Positions 21,552 through 25,057 of a DNA stretch of 64,000 nucleotides are shown in pieces (the first letter of the stretch is position 1; each line of letters starts with the position of its first letter). The notes beneath the pieces were generated by a model, which saw only the letters and a program-made list of their open reading frames with translations, made no database searches and had not been told where the DNA came from. This DNA comes from Streptomyces liangshanensis (GTDB taxonomy: Bacteria; Actinomycetota; Actinomycetes; Streptomycetales; Streptomycetaceae), in assembly GCF_011694815.1 (NCBI RefSeq), contig NZ_CP050177.1, forward strand, positions 3,479,001 through 3,543,000. The letters are read 5' to 3'. Both the position numbers and the translations under genes were made by a program.

Positions 21552-21640
21552 CATGCGACGACCCCCGCCGGGGGGGAGAGCGGGGGTCGTCCCCACGGCC
21601 TGACTCGGGGGGGGAGGAGTCGGGCCGGGTTAGCACGGTC
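21552..21640 (-). ncRNA. 6C RNA
   Basis: On the minus strand two hairpins with C-runs in their loops follow each other. The first has a GACTC/GAGTC stem (21617-21621 with 21602-21606) around CTCCCCCCCC. The second has a perfect 12-base stem GACGACCCCCGC/GCGGGGGTCGTC (21580-21591 with 21557-21568) around a loop containing seven C. Two such loops define the actinobacterial 6C RNA. It also lies in the expected place, between ssd and the HAD phosphatase gene, as in M. tuberculosis (B11) and S. coelicolor. In mycobacteria the C-rich loops pair with G-rich ribosome sites of target mRNAs. The exact ends are not visible; the second hairpin may double as terminator. Confidence 0.88.
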
Positions 21641-21727: not shown

Positions 21728-22564
21728 ATGCTCACCCTCGTGGAAATCCGCTCCTTGCCGCGCACAGCTGCCTTCTTTGACCTGGACAAGACGGTCATTG
21801 CGAAGTCATCGACGTTGACCTTCAGCAAGCCCTTCTACCAAGGCGGTCTGATCAACCGCCGGGCGGTACTACGGACCGCTTACGCGCAGTTCGTCTTCCT
21901 CGCGGGAGGCGCCGATCACGACCAGATGGAGCGGATGCGCGAGTACCTCTCCGCGCTCTGCAAAGGCTGGAACGTCTCACAGGTCAAGGAGATCGTCGCA
22001 GAGACCCTGCACGACCTCATCGACCCCATCATCTACGACGAAGCGGCGTCCCTCATCGAGGACCACCACACCGCCGGCCGGGACGTGGTGATCGTCTCCA
22101 CCTCGGGCGCCGAGGTGGTCGAACCGATCGGTGAACTCCTGGGCGCCGACCGGGTGGTGGCGACCCGGATGGCCGTCGGCCCCGACGGTTGCTTCACCGG
22201 CGAGGTGGAGTACTACGCGTACGGACCGACCAAGGCCGAGGCGGTCAAGGCGCTCGCCGAGTCGGAGGGCTACGACCTGTCGCGCTGCTACGCGTACAGC
22301 GACTCCATCACGGACGTACCGATGCTCCAGTCCGTCGGCCATCCGTACGCGGTCAATCCGGACCGATCGCTGCGGCGTGAGGCGATCGCGCGCGACTGGC
22401 CGATCCTGGTCTTCAGCCGGCCCGTTCGGCTGAAGCGACGCCTGCCCGCCCTGTCGATGCCGCCGCGCCCGGCGTTGGTGGCCGCGGCCGCCGTGGGCGC
22501 GGCGGCGGCCACGGCGGGGCTGGTCTGGTACGCCAGCCGTCGCAGGACGGCGACGCCCGTGTGA
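21728..22564 (+). CDS. HAD-IB family phosphatase with C-terminal membrane helix
   Basis: A 278-residue HAD hydrolase of the SerB/CicA-like group. The catalytic nucleophile is in AAFFDLDKTVI, motif II in VIVSTSGAEVV, the motif III lysine in YGPTKAEAV and the motif IV acids in YSDSITDVPML. Residues about 250-270 form one membrane helix ending in a basic stretch (YASRRR), so the enzyme is tail-anchored with its active site in the cytoplasm. The orthologous place is held by Rv3661 in M. tuberculosis and a 'morphological differentiation-associated' gene in S. coelicolor. The substrate is unknown. It is flanked by two small RNA loci. Confidence 0.9.
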   Translation: MLTLVEIRSLPRTAAFFDLDKTVIAKSSTLTFSKPFYQGGLINRRAVLRTAYAQFVFLAGGADHDQMERMREYLSALCKGWNVSQVKEIVAETLHDLIDPIIYDEAASLIEDHHTAGRDVVIVSTSGAEVVEPIGELLGADRVVATRMAVGPDGCFTGEVEYYAYGPTKAEAVKALAESEGYDLSRCYAYSDSITDVPMLQSVGHPYAVNPDRSLRREAIARDWPILVFSRPVRLKRRLPALSMPPRPALVAAAAVGAAAATAGLVWYASRRRTATPV

Positions 22565-22699
22565 CCGCCTCACCCACGTCACCCGCTGCGCCGACTCCAC
22601 CCGCTTCACCCGCGCGCGCCCGGTCGCCCCTTTCCTGGGAACCGGCTGTCCGTTTCACCCCTGTTTGAACGTGAAAGTAAAGAAGTCGGGCCGGGGGTT

Positions 22700-22960
22700 T
22701 CGCATCCCTGGGGAGAGGAGTACAAAGGAATCAACGGCCCGCGAGACCAAGGACATCCGAGAGGATCACCTGAGAAACGCTTGAGGCCCCACGGACCGAA
22801 GCACGGAAGTCGAGTACCCACGCGACGTCGACCCGTCGATTACGGGCCAGCCGCACCAGGTGACGGGCGAAGATCCCGGCCTGATGGGCACTACTTCGAG
22901 GACGCTTGGTAACTCGGCGGACGTGTTGGCGGCGGCATCGAATGTGATGCCGCCGCAATT
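22700..22960 (+). ncRNA. Ms1/scr3559-type 6S-like RNA (ends approximate)
   Basis: The 526 bases between the HAD gene and the Fic-like gene hold no credible protein. This is the exact syntenic position of Ms1/MTS2823 in mycobacteria (after the Rv3661 homologue) and of scr3559 in S. coelicolor, an RNA that binds core RNA polymerase. The stretch is less G+C-rich than its neighbours and purine-rich, and it ends near a perfect hairpin GCGGCGGCATC/GATGCCGCCGC (22929-22956) with a six-base loop. A possible promoter is TTTCGC (22698) with TACAAA (22721), 17 bases apart, giving a start near 22733. The call rests on position and character; I cannot fold or align it here. Confidence 0.68.
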
Positions 22961-23090
22961 ACGTCCGGACGCGACGCGAATTCGGACCCGGAGACCGCGC
23001 CGAACGAATGCGGGGCGAATTCACCGGAGCGCCCGATTCGGAAGCGCCGACCGGTCAGGCCGGGTCGGGTGCGATGAGCAGGGCGTCAGG

Positions 23091-23969
23091 TCAGGCCGCG
23101 CCGCGCTGGAGGGCTTCGCACACCGCCGTGGACTCCCGTACGCCCAGCTCGATCGCGCGGGCGCAGTGCGCGATCCACGTGACCATCCCGTCCGGGGTGC
23201 CCGACAGGTAGCCCGCGAAGGCGGCGGCGTACGCGGCCCGGCCCAGCTCCGCGTGGCCGGCCTCCGCGGGACAGACCGACTTGGGGTCGAGCCCGCTGCC
23301 GGTCAGCACGATGCGTTCGGCGGCGCGCGCCACGAGGCCGTTGTACGAGCCGAACGGGCGCAGCGCCAGGAGTTCGCCGTGGACCACCGCGGCCGTCACC
23401 AGGGCCGGCGCCGAACTCCCCGCCAGGATCAGGGCCGACAGCCCCTTCAGCCGTCCCGCCACCTCGTCGGCGCCGGGGAGCGGCGCCTCGGTCAGCGGTC
23501 CGGTGGCGTCGGCGCCGGGGGTCTCCGTCACGCGTTCGCCGTGGAGCCGGGGACGCCCGACCGTGTCATCGGCGGGGCCCGCGCCGCCCGCCGCCACCAG
23601 ATGCAGCCGGGCCAGCACCCGTACCGGTGACTGGTCCCAGATGGAGAGGAGTTGGCCGGCCTCGGCGGTCAGGCGCAGGGCGGCGCCGACCGTGCGGGCC
23701 TCGTCGTCGGCGCCGAAGTCGCTGCGCCTGCGCACCTCTTCCAGCGCCCAGTCGGCGCCGGACAGCGCGGCGGAACCACGCGCGGCGCGCAGGGCCGCCT
23801 CCGAGGTGACCTCGTTGCTGCGGCGGCGCATGACCCGGTGGCCGTAGACGCGGTCGACCGCCCTGCGCACGGAATCCACCGCGTCGGGGACACCCGGCAG
23901 GGAGGCCAGCGCGAGCAGGGGTTCCTCCGGCCGCGGAGCGGAAGAGGCGTCAGAGGCAGTCGTACTCAT
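23091..23969 (-). CDS. Degenerate Fic-like protein (Rv3662c/SCO3559-like)
   Basis: This 292-residue protein has an Ala/Leu-rich helical fold. The segment VHGELLALRPFGSYNGLVAR lines up with the Fic motif HPFxxGNGRxxR, but the histidine is Arg and GNGR is eroded, so AMP transfer is not expected. It carries no signal or membrane helix. An ATG at 23969 (MSTTASDASSAP) starts it, a few codons inside the longest frame. The gene lies next to the HAD phosphatase/Ms1 locus and the P-loop ATPase gene, a grouping kept in mycobacteria. It has been annotated elsewhere as an oxidoreductase, for which I see no support. Confidence 0.82.
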   Translation of the reverse strand: MSTTASDASSAPRPEEPLLALASLPGVPDAVDSVRRAVDRVYGHRVMRRRSNEVTSEAALRAARGSAALSGADWALEEVRRRSDFGADDEARTVGAALRLTAEAGQLLSIWDQSPVRVLARLHLVAAGGAGPADDTVGRPRLHGERVTETPGADATGPLTEAPLPGADEVAGRLKGLSALILAGSSAPALVTAAVVHGELLALRPFGSYNGLVARAAERIVLTGSGLDPKSVCPAEAGHAELGRAAYAAAFAGYLSGTPDGMVTWIAHCARAIELGVRESTAVCEALQRGAA

Positions 23970-24070
23970 AAGTAGCAAGGCTACGCGCCCGGAACGGGGG
24001 CCCTACCTTGGAGTGGACTTCTTCACTGAATGTGATCGGCGAACACAGAGAGCCGCTAACCTATGTGAAC

Positions 24071-25057
24071 ATGAAGATCGCTTTCGTGGGTAAGGGCGGC
24101 AGCGGCAAGACCACGCTGTCCTCGCTCTTCATCCGCCACCTGACCGCCAATGAGGCTCCCGTCGTCGCGGTGGACGCCGACATCAACCAGCACCTGGGGG
24201 CCGCGCTCGGCCTCACGGACGAGGAGGCGGCCGCGCTGCCCGCGCTCGGCGCGCACCTTCCGCTGATCAAGGACTATCTGCGCGGCAGCAATCCGCGGAT
24301 CGCGTCCGCCGAGGCAATGATCAAGACGACTCCGCCGGGCGAGGGGTCGCGGTTGCTCCGGGTGAACGAGGACAACCCGGTGTACGACGCGTGCGCGCGG
24401 CCCGTCCGGCTGGACGACGGGGAGATCCGGCTGATGGCGACCGGGCCCTTCACGGAGTCGGACCTCGGGGTGGCCTGCTACCACTCCAAGGTCGGCGCGG
24501 TCGAGCTGTGCCTGAACCACCTGGTCGACGGGCCGGACGAGTACGTCGTCGTCGACATGACGGCCGGTTCCGACTCGTTCGCGTCGGGGATGTTCACGCG
24601 GTTCGACATGACGTTCCTGGTGGCCGAGCCGACCCGCAAGGGGGTGTCGGTCTACCGCCAGTACAAGGAGTACGCGCGGGACTTCGGCGTCTCCCTGAAG
24701 GTCGTCGGCAACAAGGTGCAGGGGGAGGACGACCTGGACTTCCTCCGCCAGGAGGTGGGCGACGACCTGCTCGTCACCATGGCGCACTCCAACTGGGTCC
24801 GGGCGATGGAGAAGGGCCGCCCGCCCCGCTTCGAACTGCTGGAGACGGACAACCGCTGCGCGCTCCAGACCCTCCAGGACGCGGCGGAGGACTCGTACGC
24901 GAACCGCGACTGGGAGCGGTACACCCGGCAGATGGTCCACTTCCACCTCAGGAACGCGGAGAGCTGGGGCAACGCGAAGACGGGCGTCGACCTGGCTTCC
25001 CAGGTCGACCCCGCCTTCATCCTCAGCGAAGCCTCAGCCGTCCCCCTGCCCGGCTGA
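24071..25057 (+). CDS. CooC/ParA-like P-loop ATPase
   Basis: A 328-residue SIMIBI ATPase that begins MKIAFVGKGGSGKTTLSSL, the deviant Walker A with both lysines, directly after the start. VVAVDADINQHLGAALGL supplies switch I and VVVDMTAGSDSFASGMF switch II. It has the form of CooC-type metal-insertion or ParA-like ATPases, but no metal-enzyme gene lies beside it. Start 24071 is chosen because the P-loop begins there. It is convergent with the deacetylase-like lipoprotein gene. Substrate or partner unknown. Confidence 0.87.
   Translation: MKIAFVGKGGSGKTTLSSLFIRHLTANEAPVVAVDADINQHLGAALGLTDEEAAALPALGAHLPLIKDYLRGSNPRIASAEAMIKTTPPGEGSRLLRVNEDNPVYDACARPVRLDDGEIRLMATGPFTESDLGVACYHSKVGAVELCLNHLVDGPDEYVVVDMTAGSDSFASGMFTRFDMTFLVAEPTRKGVSVYRQYKEYARDFGVSLKVVGNKVQGEDDLDFLRQEVGDDLLVTMAHSNWVRAMEKGRPPRFELLETDNRCALQTLQDAAEDSYANRDWERYTRQMVHFHLRNAESWGNAKTGVDLASQVDPAFILSEASAVPLPG

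Follow-up and report, generated by a model that had tools for sequence, protein, structure and literature searches.

A conserved Streptomyces locus very probably encoding a small RNA of the Ms1/scr3559 class

In the genome of Streptomyces liangshanensis (7.72 Mb, single contig), the gap that separates a HAD-IB phosphatase gene from a convergent gene very probably holds, on the plus strand, the gene for a folded small RNA of the Ms1/scr3559 class that would bind RNA polymerase core. The stretch of DNA analysed, hereafter the window, comprises the 64,000 nucleotides of contig NZ_CP050177.1 from 3,479,001 to 3,543,000. The original prediction of an Ms1/scr3559-type locus is supported by conservation of the gene throughout the genus, a closing stem with bubble that covaries, synteny, and homology, seen in covariance models that meet the Rfam Ms1 family. 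The RNA belongs to an already known type; the analysis makes its homology across the taxonomic class explicit and adds a core shared there with variants, a conserved promoter, clean losses and a puzzle of A.C oppositions.

Locus, neighbouring genes and conservation

The RNA had been predicted in a 526-base gene-free interval following a HAD phosphatase gene and facing a Fic-like gene, and the interval is present at 22565–23090 (Table 1). The HAD assignment stands by Pfam and TIGR01490, and the protein is 95% identical to its homologue in Streptomyces sp. MnatMP-M17, whereas the Fic-like character of the facing gene is weakly supported: its sole Pfam signal is Fic, scoring 13.6 bits (E 0.12) where the cut-off is 24. 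Judged from its sequence, any relationship of the protein to Fic is a distant one; it has a stretch RPFGSYNGLVAR that we take to resemble a degenerate Fic motif. The locus thus has the position known for the Ms1/scr3559 class, after a HAD-IB gene and facing a gene labelled Fic or oxidoreductase, the Fic label being sub-threshold here. In the published Ms1 synteny tables, "Fic" is one of the phrases applied to this neighbour (PMC9130861). Just ahead of the HAD gene, a 6C RNA (RF01066, 51.9 bits) was detected on the minus strand at 21553–21629; a 6C RNA occurs in 8 of 16 scanned loci (L142, L143, L149, L153, L171, L177, L178 and L179).

The segment originally proposed, 22665–22960, runs from the conserved promoter region to the predicted 3' end of the RNA. 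It is purine-rich as described, with a fraction of 0.581 on the plus strand that 23 of 1275 window stretches of the same length equal or exceed. Its G+C content is indeed lower than that of the whole window (0.611 versus 0.717; 28 of 1275 stretches as low), but comparably low values (0.595–0.645) occur in parts of the HAD gene as well.

By blastn, the gap matches DNA in 142 of 150 sampled genus genomes, including the window's own. A match is present in 109 of 110 fetched loci, and the remaining one, L031, ends at the HAD gene. All 80 fetched loci of named relatives are from Streptomyces. Across 99 aligned sequences, conservation sets in near 22660 and fades past about 22960, and the RNA region of the relatives is 0.67–0.85 identical to the window (median 0.80). 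Removal of near-duplicates at 95% identity reduced 108 relatives to 87, of which 56 were aligned with the window by plain MAFFT (alignment A1). Two covariance models were used, R1 built from Streptomyces sequences only and R2 from 41 sequences excluding family f4, which is called mycobacterial-type here because of its Rfam Ms1 scores. E-values of both models are rough owing to a short calibration, and the class and phylum searches used stricter filters by which weak matches are lost.

Within the family, R1 gave matches in 98 of 101 genomes, covering 17 of 17 genera. In the class sample it matched 77 of 296 genomes and 34 of 114 genera, namely 28 Streptomyces and 49 other genomes spanning 33 genera. 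R2 reached 151 of 296 genomes and 56 of 114 genera, although 38 of these 151 genomes had, by hand count, supplied training rows of R2. In the phylum search R2 matched 14 of 198 genomes, each listed as genus or class, and none of the 181 genomes outside the class (198 minus 17 listed as genus or class). One R1 match, L180 in G161 (E 8.6e-4), was rejected as probably false, as neither neighbour is present and R2 picks another place.

No blastn match was obtained in 8 of the 150 genus genomes, and R2 found none there either, while it matched 28 of 28 Streptomyces in the class sample. In four of the eight (G121, G120, G010 and G037; loci L221–L224), both neighbours are kept in convergent orientation only 34–92 bases apart, and an unfiltered R1 search found nothing convincing (best 12.9 bits, E 0.018); these are clean losses of the RNA, in 4 of 150 genomes. 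As to the other four, G001 and G046 lack a match to the Fic-labelled protein and G008 and G102 have a partial one. When the two neighbour proteins are placed in a midpoint-rooted tree, three losses stand beside L153, with support of 0.996 for the four, and the RNA of L153 is itself very divergent (49.2 bits); the fourth loss lies elsewhere with weak support (0.45), and two or more losses would be the simplest count on this tree. Since these genomes measure 5.9–8.0 Mb, loss is not restricted to small genomes, for which a trend is discussed in PMC9130861.

Table 1. Features of the locus and its surroundings in window coordinates
Feature	Position	Strand	Evidence
HAD-IB family phosphatase gene, SCO3558 type, upstream neighbour	21728–22564	+	Pfam HAD 116.2 bits, TIGR01490 207.4 bits
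GTAAAG upstream element, −56 to −51 from predicted start	22677–22682	+	
−35-position element TTTCGC (consensus TTCCGC), 17 nt ahead of −10	22698–22703	+	
−10 element TACAAA	22721–22726	+	
Ms1/scr3559-type RNA, 228 nt, both ends predicted	22733–22960 (end about)	+	conservation edges; R1 243.9 bits (window itself a training sequence of R1); RACE-length match
5' domain, near-invariant strands GGCCCGCGAGACC and GGCCCCACGGACCG flanking a variable hairpin	22736–22798	+	
Closing-stem domain with bubble and inner hairpins	22801–22926	+	
Closing stem P1	22801–22805/22922–22926	+	
Closing stem P2	22809–22814/22913–22918	+	
Closing stem P3	22818–22820/22907–22909	+	
Closing stem P4	22822–22824/22903–22905	+	
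Conserved core, 5' half, ACCCACGCG	22816–22824	+	
Conserved core, 3' half, ACGCUUGGUAAC	22902–22913	+	
3' hairpin, 11 bp, six-base loop	22929–22956 (arms 22929–22939, 22946–22956)	+	fold, covariation
Convergent gene, Fic label in synteny literature	23091–23978	−	Pfam Fic sub-threshold
ParA-like gene beyond convergent gene	24074–25057	+	CbiA domain

Fold, core and promoter

The predicted RNA is as long as the S. coelicolor RNA measured between its RACE ends, 3,934,693 and 3,934,920 (PMC9130861). RNAalifold on A1 (57 sequences) yielded 60 pairs, 17 of them with compensatory change, in a consensus fold comprising the closing stem, a bubble region with two inner hairpins, and the 3' hairpin, which itself covaries. 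The long closing stem with a central bubble that structure prediction had been expected to reveal was thus found, with covariation, and the hairpins near the ends complete the architecture of the class; the perfect 11-base hairpin is likewise present as described. In A3, 49 of 60 pairs show double changes and 94.7% of cells are paired, neither value being reached by any of 500 shuffles, although A2, A3 and A4 were fitted to the R1 structure and their pair counts lean towards it.

For an RNA ending at 22960, the minimum-energy fold of the single sequence holds the whole closing stem, with tested-pair probabilities of 0.97–0.999 for P1, P2 and P4 and 0.847 for P3. If six more bases are added (to 22966), a longer palindrome around the 3' hairpin beats P1, the probability of which falls to 0.06. 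This palindrome, 22918–22967, in which the flanks extend the hairpin, was seen as a blastn self-match and is absent from the A1 consensus; it could rival the closing stem in the fold model, should the RNA be a few bases longer. Rfam matches to mir-548, which covers the local palindrome, and CRISPR-DR20 lie below their gathering scores and were set aside as chance or side matches. In the 5' domain, pairing of the two strands involves four A.C oppositions and has a probability of 0.115 at the tested pair of the single-sequence fold, the consensus pairing differing from the preferred single-sequence fold, and is less certain than the rest of the structure.

Sequence similarity between genera had been described as low, a statement that needs qualifying, as a core pair, ACCCACGCG with CGCNUGGU, is common across the class, with variants. 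ACCCACGCG occurs in 57/57 Streptomyces, 22/40 other Streptomycetaceae and 36/39 other class loci, and is followed by CGC[A/C/U]UGGU in 56, 12 and 30 of them, respectively; the lower counts in other Streptomycetaceae indicate that core variants are common there. From these counts, and from those given below for the closing stem and the six A.C sites, four matches on the antisense strand were left out, as were L180 and the Streptomyces locus L153. In A3, where most helices covary, P3 and P4 belong to the least variable. Retention of sequence where the neighbours retain only pairing suggests a direct contact, and the core plausibly touches the polymerase; our best guess for the contact site is the stem beside the bubble, formed by ACCCACGCG with CGCNUGGU. 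Hnilicova et al. described the bubble as important for binding and found it, together with the stems next to it, to be most conserved (PMC4191392). Among the matches listed from the open-licence literature, neither a statement of the shared core sequence nor a class-wide covariance model was found.

Promoter elements were scored in the 110 bases before the predicted start and the 12 after it. TA[C/G]AAA was found in 57/57 Streptomyces, 36/40 family and 19/38 class loci (mononucleotide-shuffle means 1.86, 1.36 and 0.90) and TAAAG in 49/57, 20/40 and 17/38 (means 3.85, 2.70 and 1.96). Single elements are thus commoner than the strict three-part pattern, which is present in 26/57, 15/40 and 5/38 upstream regions, where shuffles expect 0.00. 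The pattern GTAAAG-N14-16-TTYC-N18-20-TASAAAG, derived from these same loci, occurs once per genome, directly before the RNA, in 17 of 20 Streptomyces genomes, and read backwards in none of the 20; in the window, a promoter with these GTAAAG, TTYC and TASAAAG elements spans 22677–22727. A TTGA-type −35 pattern was found in 5/38 other class loci and 0/97 Streptomycetaceae, and by eye in three f4 loci. On sequence grounds, we read the arrangement as an old promoter accompanied by an UP-like element or a site for an upstream activator. A consensus promoter scan gave no hit on either strand and thus does not discriminate between them.

The position of the 3' hairpin between convergent genes makes it a possible terminator for both the RNA and the convergent gene, although a consensus terminator scan of the locus found none. 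It could be argued that the conserved block is no separate RNA gene but belongs to the HAD transcript as its 3' end, with the hairpin serving as a bidirectional terminator for both transcripts. We give this almost no credence, since conservation extends beyond the hairpin over the promoter region and the full RNA, the promoter pattern is single in each of those 17 genomes and located here, and the four loss genomes dropped the entire block but kept both genes.

Strand of the functional RNA

The segment 22733–22965 folds better than dinucleotide-shuffled versions of itself (z −3.92; 1 of 200 equally good), but its reverse strand folds even better (z −5.05). The same holds for 19 of 19 Streptomyces, sampled as every third of the 57 A1 rows (mean z −6.11 antisense versus −4.05 sense), and by plain energy for 57/57 Streptomyces, likewise as an alignment. 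The better antisense folding traces to six helix sites at which an A.C on the sense strand would become G.U on the antisense. On the sense strand these sites are A.C in 334 of 342 Streptomyces cells; in other Streptomycetaceae, 202 of 240 cells are A.C, 5 G.U and 12 Watson-Crick. The near-invariant A.C oppositions in sense helices of Streptomycetaceae lie within 22738–22884.

Minus-strand RNAs of 260 nt and 192 nt were described in S. coelicolor by Bobek et al. (2021), who consider that RNAs of both strands may exist (PMC8539372). A functional minus-strand RNA in their sense, 6S-like and binding the HrdB holoenzyme, would agree with these transcripts and with the antisense folding, yet we judge it highly improbable. 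In the closing stem, G.U outnumbers A.C on the sense strand by 36:15 cells in 57 Streptomyces and 54:17 in 40 other Streptomycetaceae. The conserved promoter is directed to the plus strand, and RNA-seq, RACE and Term-seq data cited in PMC9130861 map the main transcript to that strand, where the RNA is also placed in PMC11077062. In other genera (34 sequences) the two strands fold alike (z −3.22 and −3.30). Over all pairs shared by the folds of both strands, G.U:A.C is 55:35 in A1. In the 40 other Streptomycetaceae it is 85:87, with one doubtful pair accounting for 33 of the 87 A.C cells. Cells in these counts are not independent; the two ratios point to the closing stem as the source of the sense signal. 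We take the sense strand as functional, relying mainly on the closing stem, on the promoter and on where published work maps the RNA.

It appears unlikely, if somewhat less remote, that the Streptomycetaceae locus is constrained on both strands, with an additional structured, functional antisense RNA, or by A+.C pairs. The first case would imply a sense/antisense pair of polymerase-binding RNAs, the second a pH-sensitive Ms1 helix with a protonated A+.C wobble, which would tie polymerase storage to cell physiology.

Homology to Ms1, proposed function and known systems

The plus-strand RNA was compared with the Rfam Ms1 family (RF02566), which aligned over its full length to 22776–22964 with 19.5 bits (E 0.011, 1001 bases searched), short of the gathering score of 162 for membership. 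A search of the whole genome at E ≤ 0.001 gave no match, but as the controls matched nowhere either, it shows little. The gathering score was passed by 17 of 296 class genomes, all f4 and none Streptomyces. At E ≤ 0.001, 26 of 296 matched, namely 24 f4 genomes, G390 (f46) and one Streptomyces, G340 (29.6 bits, at the place of R1), the sole one of 28 sampled. R1 and R2 match at places that RF02566 also finds. All three R1 matches in f4 (G179, G250 and G329) overlap RF02566 matches; at L179 of G329, RF02566 scored 287.9 bits at 2003–2308 and R1 28.7 bits at 2001–2272 on the same strand (E 8.5e-4 for the genome). Among the 24 f4 genomes with an RF02566 match, R2 lists 18 and misses six, and all 17 places given overlap. 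According to PMC9130861, the Streptomyces RNA has no BLAST-detectable similarity to M. smegmatis Ms1 and was found via the wording of neighbour annotations.

Synteny provides an independent check, because neighbours were not used in finding the loci. Of the 49 non-Streptomyces genomes with R1 matches, 39 loci were fetched (L153 and L138–L140 left out, L138 and L140 duplicating fetched places), and 34 of the 39 have HAD upstream and/or the Fic-labelled gene convergent downstream. Within the fetched sequence, HAD lies upstream on the same strand in 20 (two more than 1 kb away), the Fic-labelled gene is convergent downstream in 30 (one more than 1 kb away), both are present in 16 and neither in 5.

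In the proposed mechanism, a plus-strand RNA of ~228 nt would be made from its own promoter with the TACAAA −10 element. Its fold would comprise a 5' domain, a long closing stem with interruptions and an inner bubble, and the 3' hairpin, which probably terminates transcription. By orthology with scr3559 of S. coelicolor, it would build up towards stationary phase and bind sigma-free RNA polymerase core, keeping enzyme in reserve. A transcript of ~230 nt on the HAD strand is abundant late in growth of S. coelicolor (PMC9130861). There, scr3559 from the same locus binds the core, mostly without HrdB (PMC9130861, PMC11077062), being about 310-fold enriched on RNA polymerase in exponential and 1250-fold in stationary phase, and about 45-fold on HrdB in stationary phase (PMC11077062). 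According to published work, the RNA binds sigma-free core in both S. coelicolor and M. smegmatis (PMC9130861, PMC11077062, PMC4191392), and in the latter Ms1 is said to regulate the amount of polymerase and to speed outgrowth (PMC11077062).

A covariance model built from Streptomyces alone reaches Rfam Ms1 places, and the second covers about half of the class sample; the models would allow Ms1 annotation by sequence and structure. The short core offers a target for mutations in polymerase-binding tests, and the loss genomes now pinpoint Streptomyces that lack the RNA yet retain its neighbours.

Among known systems, CoRP RNA of Corynebacterium glutamicum is likewise an abundant RNA polymerase-binding actinobacterial RNA, but is 516 nt long, flanked by tRNA genes and binds the holoenzyme too (PMC11077062), a distinction drawn from its published description. 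6S RNA shares the long hairpin, the central bubble and RNA polymerase binding, but is a holoenzyme binder. A canonical 6S RNA at the locus has, despite the similar shape of a long stem with bubble, a practically negligible probability: the Rfam 6S families give no match in the window even at E ≤ 5, whereas Ms1 matches at E 0.011, and the published RNA of the locus binds core, mostly without HrdB (PMC9130861, PMC11077062). An Ms1/scr3559-class RNA is thus the preferred reading. M. smegmatis Ms1 (MTS2823, RF02566) shares the HAD neighbour, closing stem, bubble and 3' hairpin, as well as the core, written ACCCaCGCG and ACGCUuGGUa in the Rfam consensus, but mycobacterial Ms1 is about 300 nt long with a longer inner domain. 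The mycobacterial-type loci L177–L179 have the TA[C/G]AAA −10 in common with the window and differ in their TTGA-type −35. The scr3559 RNA of S. coelicolor (Str13/Ms1) has the same locus between SCO3558-type HAD and SCO3559-type genes, the same strand (PMC9130861) and the 228-nt span. The two were compared by locus, strand and span, the sequence link running via other species such as S. tendae (L090), and the window differs in that the hairpin flanks extend the palindrome.
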